From the NCBI GenBank assembly GCA_003219415.1, contig QHOS01000022.1:1-43912 (forward strand): a DNA stretch of 43,912 nt. Direction: 5' to 3'. This stretch comes from Verrucomicrobiota bacterium. GTDB taxonomy: Bacteria; Verrucomicrobiota; Verrucomicrobiia; Chthoniobacterales; UBA10450. A model generated the notes under the pieces. It was not told where the DNA came from, did not search any database, and saw only the letters and a list, made by a program, of their open reading frames with translations. Of this stretch, positions 10,152 through 43,912 are shown in pieces. A program made the translations under genes and the position numbers. The first letter of the stretch is position 1; each line of letters opens with the position of its first letter.

Positions 10152-10225
10152 GCCCACTAAACACACGAAATATCCGAAATGAAATTCACAGTAATCTTTT
10201 CGTGTTTTTCGTGTGTTTCGTGGGC
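10152..10225. repeat. phased-arm palindrome P2 (period 9, CACGAAA units)
   Basis: Lies inside the efflux operon, between the HlyD and ATPase genes. Left-arm units of nine bases: CCCACTAAA (10153), CACACGAAA (10162), TATCCGAAA (10171). Right-arm units on the minus strand: CCCACGAAA (10224-10216), CACACGAAA (10215-10207), AACACGAAA (10206-10198). The arms pair across a spacer of about 17 bases. Confidence 0.8.
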
Positions 10226-17101: not shown

Positions 17102-17212
17102 TGTCATCTCGAACGAAACGAGGGACCTCGCCTACGAAGTTTGCGTCACCTCGGGCGGTCAGCGTAATCGATCTCTCTTGTCGGAGGTCCCTCGCTGCGC
17201 TCGGGATGACAT
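17102..17212. repeat. TGTCAT-type palindromic repeat, copy 4 (GAGGGACCTC subtype)
   Basis: Left arm TGTCATCTCGAACGAAACGA followed by GGGACCTCG; right arm on the minus strand TGTCATCCCGAGCGCAGCGA followed by GGGACCTC. It occupies the whole spacer between the RlmI-like gene and the coiled-coil operon and could terminate the upstream transcript. Confidence 0.85.
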
Positions 17213-19404: not shown

Positions 19405-19497
19405 TGTCATGTTGAGCGAAGCGAAACATCTCTGACTGTTCCAGCGAAAGACTGCTCCGAAAATGATCAGAGATTCTTCGCTTCGCTCAGAATGTCA
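19405..19497. repeat. TGTCAT-type palindromic repeat, copy 5
   Basis: Left arm TGTCATGTTGAGCGAAGCGA with AACATCTCTG; right arm on the minus strand TGACATTCTGAGCGAAGCGA with AGAATCTCTG. The internal spacer resembles that of copy 6 (ATCATTT...GGAGCA) but in the opposite orientation, so these are two insertions of one element. It follows purC. Confidence 0.9.
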
Positions 19498-23555: not shown

Positions 23556-23648
23556 TGTCATTCTGAGCGAAGCGAAGAATCTCAGATCATTTCTGGAGCA
23601 ACCCTCTGCAAGAATAACCAGAGATGTTTCGCTTCGCTCAACATGACA
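23556..23648. repeat. TGTCAT-type palindromic repeat, copy 6
   Basis: Left arm TGTCATTCTGAGCGAAGCGA with AGAATCTC; right arm on the minus strand TGTCATGTTGAGCGAAGCGA with AACATCTCTGG. It lies between the convergent Zn-ribbon methyltransferase and mdh genes, a position suited to a bidirectional terminator. It is the inverse orientation of copy 5. Confidence 0.9.
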
Positions 23649-25359: not shown

Positions 25360-28300
25360 ATGCCGCGAAATAACGAGCTTAAAAAAATCCTGCTGATCGG
25401 GTCCGGTCCAATCGTAATCGGACAGGGTTGCGAATTTGATTATTCCGGCGTGCAAGCGTGCAAGGCGTTGCGCGAGGAAGGCTATGTGGTCGTGCTGGTG
25501 AATTCCAACCCAGCCACCATCATGACCGATCCAGAATTCGCGGATCGCACCTATATCGAGCCGATCACTCCGGAAGTAATCGAGGCGATCATGGAACGTG
25601 AAAAACCAGACGCTATTTTGCCAACTCTGGGCGGACAAACTGCGCTTAACGCTGCGATGGAATTGAACCGCAACGGCGCGTTGGCGCGACACGGGGTGAA
25701 GTTGATTGGCGCAAACGCCCAGGCGATTGCAAAAGGCGAAGATCGCCAATTGTTTAAGGAAGCGATGTTGCGCATCGGGCTGGACGTGCCGCGCTCAGAA
25801 GTGGCGCGTTCTCTCGCGGACCTTGACCGTATCGTCGCTGAAGTTGGAACTTTTCCGCTCGTCATTCGCCCGGCCTTCACTCTGGGCGGAGCCGGCGGTG
25901 GGATCGCTTACAATCGTGAGGAGCTCGATGTAATCGCGGCGCGAGGCCTCGATCTGTCGCCGGTCCACGAAGTGCTGATTGAGGAATCGCTGGTCGGATG
26001 GAAAGAATTCGAGATGGAAGTGATGCGCGATCGAATGGACAACTGTGTGGTTGTTTGTTCCATCGAGAATTTCGATCCGATGGGTGTGCATACCGGCGAC
26101 TCGATTACTGTCGCGCCCGTGCAGACCCTTACCGACAAGGAATATCAGATCATGCGCGATGCTGCGTTCGCGGTCATTCGCGAGATCGGTGTGGAGACCG
26201 GCGGTTCGAACATTCAGTTTGCGGTGAATCCTGACAACGGCCGGATGGTCGTAATTGAAATGAACCCGCGGGTCTCGCGTTCCAGCGCGCTGGCGTCGAA
26301 GGCAACGGGATTTCCGATCGCGAAAATCGCGGCAAAGCTCGCAATCGGTTACACGCTTGATGAAATCAAGAACGATATCACCCGCGAAACGCCGGCATGC
26401 TTTGAGCCGACCATCGATTACTGCGTGGTGAAGGTGCCGCGGTTTACGTTCGAAAAATTTCCGCAGGCGGATGCAACGCTCACGACGCGGATGAAAAGCG
26501 TCGGCGAAGCAATGGCTATCGGACGGACGTTTAAGGAAGCCTTGCAAAAAGCGCTTCGCAGTCTGGAGATCAAGCGCTTCGGCTTATGCGGCGATGGTGC
26601 GAATAAAGATGTCGATGCTGAGACGTTGCGCTTGAAGCTGGCGATCCCGAACGCGGAGCGGATTTTTTATCTAGCCCAGGCGTTTCAAGACGGAATGCCA
26701 ATCGACGAAGTTTTCGAATTAACGAAGATCGACAGGTGGTTTTTGCGGAATGTGCAGCAGATCGTGGAGGAAGCGAATCGGCTGCGTAGTAGCACAGGCA
26801 TCTTGCCTGTGGGGCAGGCGGGCGTCTCGCCTGCCGAACGGGAGAATGACTCAAGCGGCCGTGACCCGCAATTTCATCCCGTGGATCGGCACGGGAAAAT
26901 TCAAAAACACCAGCCCGCCGGCCCCACAGGCAAGATGCCCGTGCCACAACTTCTTCGCGCAAAAAAGCTCGGTTTTTCAGATCGACAACTGGCGGTAGCG
27001 AACGGAGTCAGCGCAACTGAAATCCGTACCAAGCGGCAGTCGTCAGGCGTCCTGCCTACCTATCGGCTCGTCGATACATGCGCGGCGGAGTTTGAAGCGT
27101 ACACGCCTTATTACTACTCGACGTATGGCGATGAGAACGAGCGGCGCGAGAGCGGCAAACGCAGGATTATGATCCTTGGCGGCGGCCCGAACCGGATCGG
27201 CCAGGGAATCGAATTCGACTATTGCTGCGTGCACGCGGCCTTTGCTCTGCGCGAGCTCGGATTTGAAACCATCATGGTCAACTCCAATCCAGAAACGGTC
27301 TCCACGGATTACGACACGAGCGACAAACTTTACTTCGAGCCGCTCACGCTCGAAGATGTGCTCAACATTTATGATCAGGAGAAACCAGAGGGCGTATTCG
27401 TTCAGTTTGGCGGTCAAACACCGCTGAATTTGGCGGACGGATTGAAGGCGGCAGGCGTACCCATTCTTGGCACTCAGCCCGAAAGCATTGAGACCGCAGA
27501 AGACCGACGCTTGTTCGCGGCCATGCTCGACAAGCTTGGTCTGCGCCAAACCCCAAATGGATCGGCCACGAGCACCGAAGACGCCGTCGCGATAGCCAGG
27601 AAAATTGGCTATCCAGCACTTGTTAGGCCGAGCTTCGTTCTCGGCGGGCGCGCCATGGAGCTTGTCTATAATGAGGAGGATCTTCGGCGTTATATGGCCA
27701 GCGCCATTGAGGTAACGCCTGATCGTCCAGTGCTGATCGATCGTTTTCTTGAAGATGCGATTGAGGTCGATGTCGATTGCATTTCGGACGGCGAAGCGAC
27801 CGTGATCGGTGCAATCATGGAGCACATCGAGGAGGCGGGCATTCACAGCGGTGACAGTGCATGCGTCATTCCGACATTCTCGTTGTCGCAAGAAGTTCTG
27901 GACGAGATTTCCGCCGCCACAAGGGCGATGGCGCGCGAGTTGAATGTGCGAGGCCTGATGAATGTGCAATTCGCCGTGAAGGGCGACAACGTTTACGTGC
28001 TGGAAGTGAATCCGCGGGCGTCGCGCACGGTTCCCTTCGTCAGCAAGGCAATTGGTGTCCCGCTTGCAAAACTCGCTGCCAAAGTGATGACCGGAAAATC
28101 ATTGTGCGAGCTCGGGTTCACAGAGGAAATCGTGCCGAAACATTTCTCGGTGAAAGAAGCGGTGTTCCCCTTTCTGCGCTACGAAGGCCTGGATATCTCG
28201 CTCGGGCCGGAGATGAAATCGACCGGCGAAGTGATGGGCATCGATGTCGATCTCGGCCTCGCCTATGCAAAATCGCAGATGGCCGCACCGCCGCCACTGC

Positions 28301-28701
28301 CGAAAAGCGGAAAAGTGTTCATCAGCGTCAAGGACACTGATAAGGAAGCGGTGATCCCGGTCGCGCGCGAGTTTGTGAAACTCGGCTTTGAAATCATTTC
28401 CACGAGCGGGACTGCAGACGCGCTGACAAAGGCGAAAATCAAAGTGACCAAGGTCTTCAAGATTCACGAAGGACGCCCAAATGTCCTCGACCGCATCAAG
28501 AATGGCGACATCAACTTCATCATCAACACGCCTAGCGGGAAAATTCCGCGCGAGCACGAAGTGGTCATTCGCAATGCGGCGCTAGCGGCGAAAATTCCGA
28601 TCATGACGACGGTGCGCGCCGCGCTGGCGAGCGCGAACGGAATCCGATCACTGCAAAAACGCAAGGTTCAGGTGCGCAGTTTACAGGAATACCATACGTG
28701 A
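25360..28701 (+). CDS. carB: carbamoyl-phosphate synthase large subunit, with repeat-encoded insertion
   Basis: Makes carbamoyl phosphate from bicarbonate, ammonia (from CarA) and two ATP, for arginine and pyrimidines. Order: first ATP-grasp half ([20 protein letters not shown] near residue 11; [10 protein letters not shown]), the oligomerisation domain (about 400-600), second ATP-grasp half ([19 protein letters not shown] at about residue 605; [12 protein letters not shown]), and the C-terminal MGS-like allosteric domain (from [13 protein letters not shown], about 985). At 1113 residues it is about 40 longer than the E. coli enzyme. The excess is an in-frame block at about residues 477-530, encoded by the palindrome at 26788-26950, inside the oligomerisation domain. 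carA is not in the window. Confidence 0.97.
26788..26950. repeat. TGILPV/TGKMPVP palindromic repeat inserted in frame inside carB
   Basis: Long inverted repeat. Left arm (26788-26824) and right arm (26911-26948) share CAGGCATCTTGCCTGTGGGG, or its near-copy on the other strand. The left part contains two hairpins of its own: CACAGGCA/TGCCTGTG (26793-26811) and GGCAGGCG/CGCCTGCC (26813-26835). The reading frame crosses the element without a stop, giving [18 protein letters not shown] at one end and [12 protein letters not shown] at the other. The element is otherwise of a type found between genes. Confidence 0.9.
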
Positions 28702-42081: not shown

Positions 42082-43101
42082 TTACATCTTAATTTCGTCG
42101 ATTCGTTTGAGAACGCGCTGCTGAAGGCTGTCGGGCAATGGCGCATACTGCAGATCCGTCGCCATTTTCTCGCCGTCCTTCGCAGCCCACCTTAAGAACT
42201 CAACGAGCTTCTTACCTTTCGCCGCATCTTTTTGCTGCTCGTACACTAATAACCACGTCGCGCCGCAGATCGGATAAGCATCCGCTCCTGGAGCGTTGGT
42301 GATTGAAAAACGGAAGTCATCTGGAATATCCGCCGTCCCCAGCGCCGCGGTAATAGATTCGAGCGACGGCTTTACAAACTTCCCAGAAGCATTTTTCACC
42401 TCTGCGTAAGGCATTTTATTTTGGACCGCGTATATCAATTCCACATATCCGAGCGCACCCGGGGTTTGTTTGATCTGCCCGGCAACGCCTTCATTGCCCT
42501 TGCCGCCAATACCCGTGGGCCAATTTACAGAAGTGTTCGTCCCGACCTTGCTTTTCCATTCGGAACTGATTTTACTCAGATAGTCGGTCCAAATGTAGGT
42601 CGTCCCGCTACCATCCGAACGATGCACGACTACGATCTCCTGATCCGGCAAGCTAACTCCAGGGTTGAGCGCGGCGATTTTTGCGTCATTCCATTTTTTG
42701 ATTTGGCCGAGAAAAATCCCGGCAATCGCGTCCGCATCAAGCTTCAACGCCGGGTTTCCGGGCAAATTGTAAGCGACCACATCCGCGCCAGCGACTGTCG
42801 GGATATGCAGAATTTTCCCAGGTGCCTTGGCCAAGTTGTCGTCGCTCATAGGGCCATCGGACGCACCAAAATCAACTGTTTGCGCGAGAATTTGCTTTTG
42901 GCCTCCGCCTGATCCGATGGATTGATAATTAAACCGGACCGAGGGATCGACTTTCGCGTACTCATCGAACCATTTTGAATAGATGGGATACGGAAAAGTC
43001 GCGCCTGCGCCATTAATCATCATCTGAGCTGAGGCGGTCACGCTGACGCCGGCTAATAGTACCGTTGCTAGGAGTTTGTGGGTAAAAGTGCGAGATTTCA
43101 T
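42082..43101 (-). CDS. pstS: phosphate-binding periplasmic protein PstS
   Basis: High-affinity phosphate receptor of the Pst importer, 339 residues from the ATG at 43101, which opens a signal peptide (MKSRTFTHKLLATVLLAGVS, cut after SASA). Phosphate-binding segments: INGAGATFPYPIYSKWFDEY, SIGSGGGQKQI, DFGASDGPM and VHRSDGSGTTYIWTDYLSK. The frame extends upstream to 43140 without match. A candidate Pho box lies 48-67 bases upstream of the start. It is the first gene of pstSCAB-phoU and separated from phoR by palindrome P5. Confidence 0.96.
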   Translation of the reverse strand: MKSRTFTHKLLATVLLAGVSVTASAQMMINGAGATFPYPIYSKWFDEYAKVDPSVRFNYQSIGSGGGQKQILAQTVDFGASDGPMSDDNLAKAPGKILHIPTVAGADVVAYNLPGNPALKLDADAIAGIFLGQIKKWNDAKIAALNPGVSLPDQEIVVVHRSDGSGTTYIWTDYLSKISSEWKSKVGTNTSVNWPTGIGGKGNEGVAGQIKQTPGALGYVELIYAVQNKMPYAEVKNASGKFVKPSLESITAALGTADIPDDFRFSITNAPGADAYPICGATWLLVYEQQKDAAKGKKLVEFLRWAAKDGEKMATDLQYAPLPDSLQQRVLKRIDEIKM

Positions 43102-43148
43102 AGACCACTCAGCCTGCCGTAGCGCGCTCGGGAGCGTCAAAATTTTTA

Positions 43149-43168
43149 ATGTTACTTTTGTGTGACAG
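43149..43168 (-). promoter_or_regulatory. candidate Pho box upstream of pstS
   Basis: Read on the minus strand: CTGTCACACAAAAGTAACAT. The first heptamer CTGTCAC fits the PhoB half-site well; the second, eleven bases later, fits weakly (GT and A conserved). An AT-rich stretch (TTAAAAATTTT) follows at -10 distance. Position and gene make it a plausible PhoB site. The responder gene itself is outside the window. Confidence 0.45.
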
Positions 43169-43180
43169 GAGGCTTCGCAG

Positions 43181-43285
43181 TCGTTAAATCGTTGACGCGT
43201 TGAACCGTTAAAGCGGATGCGTCTTCTCGCTCTCGTGCTTTGGAGCCCGTACCGCTTCAGCGCTGCGACGCTTTAACGTTCTAAC
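43181..43285. repeat. phased-arm palindrome P5 (period 8, CGTT units)
   Basis: Between phoR and pstS. Left-arm units in exact eight-base step: CGTTAAAT (43182), CGTTGACG (43190), CGTTGAAC (43198), CGTTAAAG (43206), CGGATGCG (43214). Right-arm units on the minus strand, also in exact step: CGTTAAAG (43278-43271), CGTCGCAG (43270-43263), CGCTGAAG (43262-43255), CGGTACGG (43254-43247). The phoR stop codon (43281-43283) lies inside the element. Confidence 0.85.
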
Positions 43286-43912
43286 CCGCCGGACGCAGCG
43301 GCAGCACTACTCGAATTGTGGTTCCACGTCCCAGCTCACTCTCAGCTTCCACGCGCCCACCGTGCAATTGGGCAATATGTTTCACAATCGCCAACCCCAA
43401 GCCGGTGCCTCCCAGTTCGCGGCTGCGAGCCTTATCAGCGCGATAAAAGCGCTCAAAAATTCGCGGCAAATGCTCTTTGCCGATCCCAACTCCGTTATCA
43501 GTCACGCTTAATACCATGTCGGAGCCGCGACGTGTCGCCCGCAGATGAATCTGGCCGTTCTCGGGTGAAAATTTAACTGCATTGTCCAGCAGATTATAGA
43601 GCACCTCCTCCAGGCGCGTTCCGTCAACGCGAAGCGTCAACGCCTCCGGCGGCAAATCGACAATCACCTTCAGATTTTTCGCGACTAGTCTTTCCTTCCA
43701 ATCACGGATGAGATTATTGAACAACTCATCGACCCGCACGTCGCTGAGCTCCAGCGTAGCCTGAGACGACTCCAATTGAGCAAGGCTTAGCAGGTCATCA
43801 ACCAGCCGCTGGAGTCGTTTGGAATGCCGGTCCATGATCGAAAGGATGCGTGTGAGTTCCTCCCGTGAGGTCTGCGGCTCATCAAACAATACCTCGAGGT
43901 AGCCGCGTAAAA
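43281..43912 (-). CDS. phoR: PhoR-type sensor histidine kinase (5' end cut by window)
   Basis: C-terminal 210 residues of a membrane histidine kinase; the frame is open to the window edge, and the H-box should lie just beyond it. Visible here: the end of the dimerisation helix (LRGYLEVLFDEPQ, then LSIMDRHSKRLQRLVDDLLS), the N-box LYNLLDNAVKFSP, G1 DNGVGIG, the F-box region RIFERFYRADKARS and the G2 loop GGTGLGLAIVKHIAQLHGG. Position directly before pstSCAB-phoU marks it as the phosphate sensor PhoR. Its stop codon comes from palindrome P5. Confidence 0.88.
   Translation of the reverse strand, partial: LRGYLEVLFDEPQTSREELTRILSIMDRHSKRLQRLVDDLLSLAQLESSQATLELSDVRVDELFNNLIRDWKERLVAKNLKVIVDLPPEALTLRVDGTRLEEVLYNLLDNAVKFSPENGQIHLRATRRGSDMVLSVTDNGVGIGKEHLPRIFERFYRADKARSRELGGTGLGLAIVKHIAQLHGGRVEAESELGRGTTIRVVLPLRPAG

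Follow-up and report, generated by a model that had tools for sequence, protein, structure and literature searches.

Among the bacterial repeats built from short words are the short tandemly repeated repetitive (STRR) sequences of heterocystous cyanobacteria, whose unit is a heptanucleotide. REP elements and REPINs, tagged with GTAG or CGTC, are short inverted doublets that lie between genes and can fold into hairpins, occur in dozens or more copies per genome and have a variable loop, and REPINs are also found inserted into or adjoining each other (PMC3733652, PMC3116915). REP elements within palindromes were reported in three other bacteria, Anabaena variabilis, Halothiobacillus neapolitanus and Thermomicrobium roseum, where a REP element or dimer is central in a host palindrome (PMC3733652). 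Those host palindromes have a fixed consensus, and REP-free ones were not found in A. variabilis and H. neapolitanus (PMC3733652).

Here, we examined a phased palindrome between phoR and pstS in a 43,912-nucleotide stretch of Verrucomicrobiota DNA, the whole of which is called the window. The element is probably one copy of a lineage-specific, non-coding, miniature dispersed palindromic repeat, which is made of two inward-facing CGTTRAAN arrays, also hosts REP dimers and would have spread via a trans-acting enzyme. The locus is laid out as follows, in window positions.

42082..43101, minus strand: pstS (phosphate-binding protein), the gene downstream.
43135..43168, minus strand: Pho-box-like block CTGTCACACAAAAGTAACATTAAAAATTTTGACG, conserved and outside the element (0.94–1.00 identity across 35 bp; adjacent spacer unconserved).
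43171..43178, plus strand: outer cap GGCTTCGC, located on the outer side of many left arms in the family (GGCTTCGCCA).
43182..43221, plus strand: left arm of five octamers, CGTTAAAT CGTTGACG CGTTGAAC CGTTAAAG CGGATGCG, by the 8-base CG step and self-match.
43222..43252, strand not assigned: loop between the arms, without recognised content, by the inverted-repeat scan.
43253..43284, minus strand: right arm of four octamers (CGCTTCAG CGCTGCGA CGCTTTAA CGTTCTAA on the plus strand), by the inverted repeat and CG step.
43281..43283, minus strand: phoR stop codon TAG, within the last right-arm octamer.
43281..43912, minus strand: 3′ part of phoR (HisKA and HATPase_c), leaving the window at its end.

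CG recurs in an exact 8-base step five times in the left arm (43182, 43190, 43198, 43206 and 43214) and four times in the right (43253, 43261, 43269 and 43277). Self-match at lag 8 is 0.61 in the left arm and 0.60 in the right, and other lags reach at most 0.33. These confirm the exact-period-8 palindrome of nine octamers, five plus four, that an earlier note had described. Its unit CGTTRAAN stands for the left arm, where CGTTRA begins four of the five octamers, but not for the right arm, which is a degraded reverse complement (NTTYAACG) of the left and not CGTTRAAN on the plus strand. The inverted repeat pairs 43183–43216 with 43252–43285 (34 nt, 74% complementary, arms 35 nt apart). The outer-cap motif also adjoins arrays in L004, L178, L205, L209 and L224.

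With the whole window randomised, the 5 + 4 CG arrangement arose in 2 of 300 Markov-1 copies. In its own 3.6-Mb genome, CGTTRAANCGTTRAA gave 42 matches at 31 places while the reversed control gave 0, so the other phased palindromes that the earlier note suggested looking for do exist. Because of the genome-wide recurrence, the zero reversed-pattern matches and the Markov-1 control, the 8-base phasing is not chance. The genome-wide counts are from pattern searches, and the genomes used are all MAGs or draft assemblies.

The three-unit pattern is present in 34 of the 35 genus genomes, the own one included, and in one neighbouring genus of the same family. It is absent from the other families of the order that were sampled, and its stricter form occurs in 0 of 336 other genomes drawn across the phylum. 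The named relatives, as identified by pstS, are soil Verrucomicrobia MAGs, Spartobacteria/Chthoniobacterales and Candidatus Udaeobacter.

Phased octamer arrays may occur well beyond the genus, judging from viral contigs (L313–L338). There, 26 stretches have at least three CGTTRAAN units by the strict three-unit pattern, in mixed contexts. Those of L316, L337 and L338 are long uniform tandems, and those of L313 and L329 are palindromic or lie beside other octamer words.

Family anatomy and context were counted from 137 distinct arrays. An array has 2–6 perfect units, and the octamer after it starts with CG again in more than 80%, often as CGG. In the flank profiles GTGATT is favoured on the outer side, and GGCTTCGCCA precedes the array in one sub-type. 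The usual order is [GTGATT]-[CGTTRAAN]2–6-CGG-loop-inverted arm, with the partner arm downstream (inward) in 57 arrays and upstream in 2. At loci defined by flanking genes, 120 of 124 units have a purine at position 5, and position 8 is free; the purine count is mildly biased, as units were accepted at five of seven matches and purines counted among these. TRA every 8 bases places stop codons in all three frames within 24 bp of array. A simple codon-based gene caller marks 77% of these loci as coding, yet 122 of the 137 arrays fall outside its predicted genes.

Arms pair with their own partners no better than with permuted ones (12.8 versus 13.0 ± 0.27, 200 permutations). Each arm tracks the common consensus, not its partner, and the arms do not co-evolve. 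Orthologues differ by exact 8-bp steps (L184/L193, L145/L173, L188/L198, L164/L194 and L205/L176); the number of units therefore changes through slippage or unequal exchange. Little sequence is common to the copies beyond the octamers; hence, copying of whole elements is not demonstrated, and a short seed growing in place would leave much the same picture.

Such local birth is the main rival. In it, replication slippage lengthens a short octamer seed, the inverted arm arises from template switches where forks stall, and the copies are alike owing to a shared sequence bias, not to transposition. The 8-bp steps, the scarce similarity outside the octamers and arms that are no more alike within than between elements all agree with it. 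Nevertheless, we consider it unlikely. The same degenerate word, including the position-5 purine, recurs in 34 of the 35 genus species and elsewhere in the phylum sample only in the neighbouring genus, and fresh template switching predicts arms matching their own partner, which is not observed. Moreover, the window has no excess of single CGTTRAA words (14 found versus 13.9 expected), so there is no seed pool, which speaks against local birth. A DNA uptake sequence was rejected by the same lack of over-representation in the window.

In the dispersed-repeat reading that we prefer, the copies would have spread as hairpin-forming non-autonomous elements. A trans-acting enzyme would copy or insert single-stranded hairpins, and the IS200/RAYT-type transposases of the genus are the obvious candidates. 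After the spread, array length would change by slippage or unequal exchange, and the exposed hairpin would then be a landing site for REP dimers. Copies would persist where they are least harmful, abutting gene ends, with the regular TRA supplying stops in all frames.

The arrays are without flanking transposase, and no dedicated enzyme was found. PF01797 genes, although frequent in the genus, have terminal repeats of a different kind. Of the 24 RAYT loci, L239 alone carries an array nearby, roughly 100 bp beyond its inverted repeats, and one locus in 24 is about the chance expectation. A RAYT as the direct parent was rejected, as the arrays are not at RAYT ends. New insertion was not directly observed, and only distant relatives lack an element at the site of the window copy; no target-site duplication is visible at the phoR-pstS site, which has no close empty site for comparison.

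A lead comes from the RAYT-type genes of L231, L238–L241, L245, L249 and L250. Their inverted hairpin flanks have a common loop, CGTTRAAACG, on two different stems (CCCAGCGTTGAAACGCTGGG, AAGCCGTTRAAACGGCTT). This loop is close to the array unit CGTTRAANCG.

The phoR-pstS slot varies widely among relatives. It is near-empty or empty between phoR and the conserved block in six (L025, L028, L033, L037, L040 and L072), in most of which phoR ends LP(I/V)VTQT with the stop within block GTCACACAAACGTAA. CGTT palindromes occupy it in the window, L013, L016, L018, L023 and L054, GTAGCCGC palindromes in, for example, L015, L022, L024 and L046, GGGACGAC palindromes in L019 and L021, and CGAATGA words in L016 and L038. 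In several relatives the phoR stop is supplied by the inserted DNA. The block GTCACACAAA(A/C)GTAACA is kept both in the element-free relatives, where its own TAA is the phoR stop, and where unrelated elements occupy the slot.

As the earlier note had stated, the element adjoins the conserved Pho-box-like block and provides the phoR stop. Its comparison of the phoR C-terminus and spacer between relatives with and without the element, now made, finds that the stop shifts while the block is kept. The suggested slight truncation of phoR by an insertion has two parts: an insertion is plausible but ancestral, as diverged copies stand at the site in L023, L013 and L054, with decayed units in L013 and L054, and truncation is not supported, as HATPase_c is complete (profile 2–110 of 111) and variation is confined to the final few residues past the LP motif. 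The window copy is not recent because it is orthologous to that of L023, the spacers differing by 13% and the phoR fourfold sites by 19%.

The suggested influence on Pho regulation is not supported, since relatives retain the block without the element or with unrelated elements in the slot. The element is not a Pho element, and the phoR stop within it is an incidental by-product.

On the pstS side, the genes of L023 and L054 look mosaic. They follow the window first and fall to about 70% identity from about 200–300 bp in, while L013 stays at about 90%. A recombination breakpoint at the element edge was therefore rejected, the switch lying about 200–300 bp inside pstS. Also rejected was strong conservation of the window/L023 spacer (13% versus 60% at pstS fourfold sites), which is an effect of the pstS mosaic, as the phoR fourfold value is 19%.

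Orthologous spacers elsewhere likewise hold either the element or another palindrome family. At locus B, an unrelated intergenic locus in 28 species, CGTT arrays are present in 17, with no fewer than 12 switches of element type across the gene tree. A third locus has arrays in 18 of 27. The nested 176-bp spacer of L288 and L290 at locus B differs at one aligned base between these two species while their neighbouring genes differ by 9–16% at fourfold sites, reflecting either recent exchange or strong constraint.

A second alternative is a cis-regulatory array, in which a protein binds the CGTTRAAN repeats beside genes and here touches phosphate regulation. It gains from the constraint on CGTT.AA and the position-5 purine, from the persistence of arrays at loci A and B across large distances, and from spacer divergence at or somewhat below the fourfold level in most pairs (13% versus 19% for window/L023; 13% versus 37–42% for L298/L311). 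However, array gaps and array-free gaps have equal proportions of co-directional, divergent and convergent types (p = 0.51), unrelated palindromes replace arrays at the same slots, many relatives keep the Pho block with no array upstream of pstS, and units have decayed in L013 and L054. Regulation of this kind thus appears quite improbable.

A role in RNA, as a terminator or an mRNA-stabilising hairpin between genes, is the least probable and would be surprising. In its favor, 47 two-armed copies fold better on average than their dinucleotide shuffles (mean z about −2.5, both strands). Yet the window copy in the phoR/pstS sense folds no better than shuffles, with z of +0.32 for 43170–43295 and −0.46 for the narrower element, and has no terminator-like site in that sense. 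Divergent gaps, where a terminator is useless, make up 25 of the 112 array gaps, the arm pairing is not maintained, and an Rfam search gave no match. A terminator or a tuned RNA hairpin is unlikely because array gaps are of the same types as array-free ones and the fold of the window copy does not surpass its shuffles. The intrinsic terminator was rejected on the window fold, the lacking site and the occupied divergent gaps.

REP dimers are nested in the palindromes of the family. Dimers of TGTCATnnTGAG...ATGACA occur within 90 bp on the inside of the CGTT palindrome in 14 of the 137 arrays and on the outside in 1. The intergenic dimer background, estimated via the coding fraction rather than by a direct count, is about 2% (Fisher 2.7e-5; 1.9e-4 with about 12 independent loci). 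The dimer is usually offset from the last octamer by 12–19 bp. Judged on their tag and arrangement rather than on a profile, these dimers fit the CGTC/TGTC-tagged REP type of PMC3733652. The same slot is seen with and without the dimer in L194 versus L164/L175, L105/L144 versus L221, and L136 versus L169, and the dimer-free loops may be deletions, not empty sites.

The window itself has three TGTCAT...ATGACA inverted dimers of the TGTCATTCTGAGCGAAGCGAAGAATCTC type, at 17102–17211, 19405–19497 and 23556–23648. They are not nested and resemble the CGTC/TGTC-tagged REP dimers nested in CGTT palindromes elsewhere. A palindrome at 10152–10225 repeats TTTCGTG about every 9 bases in its right arm (TTTTCGTGTTTTTCGTGTGTTTCGTGGGC) and is possibly a second phased family, perhaps the P3 of the earlier note. 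Another inverted repeat at 26786–26950 (38 nt, 89% complementary, 89 nt apart) lies within a 1113-aa ORF (25360–28701), and is an intragenic palindrome if the ORF is a gene.

More tentatively, the intergenic spaces of this lineage might serve as slots for interchangeable palindromes. An octamer-phased palindrome would be a docking structure that pairs in multiple registers, forms a single-stranded hairpin and is a preferred target of REP dimers; subsequent loss of the outer or inner part would let one family replace another at a fixed slot. We regard this as conceivable, though doubtful.

Candidatus Udaeobacter and its relatives abound in soil, yet among the papers searched none dealt with their intergenic repeats. 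The family offers a clear and testable example in which REP dimers sit within an independent palindrome, filled and unfilled at the same orthologous sites. It bears on target choice by the CGTC-type REPs, for which a dedicated transposase is not known. It further cautions against reading gene-end hairpins here as regulators, for several unrelated palindromes can fill the same gap in sister species.

Compared with the known systems, the octamer family is small, non-coding and dispersed with inverted ends like MITEs, but no target-site duplication at the phoR-pstS site, no parent transposon among the PF01797 genes and no conserved interior were found for it. As in STRR, tandem short words with a length not divisible by three are dispersed, mostly non-coding and lineage-restricted, whereas the 8-bp unit of unrelated sequence, the inward inverted layout and the Verrucomicrobiota host are different.

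It resembles REP in being intergenic and in many copies. Unlike REP, it lacks the GTAG or CGTC tag, has GTGATT outside and CGG inside, builds its arms from a variable number of tandem octamers instead of one conserved stem-loop, and does not sit at RAYT gene ends. It is an inverted pair as REPINs are, but without compensatory pairing between the arms. Like the host palindromes of A. variabilis, H. neapolitanus and T. roseum, it can hold a central REP dimer; unlike them, most of its copies have no dimer, and a single orthologous site can be found in either state.
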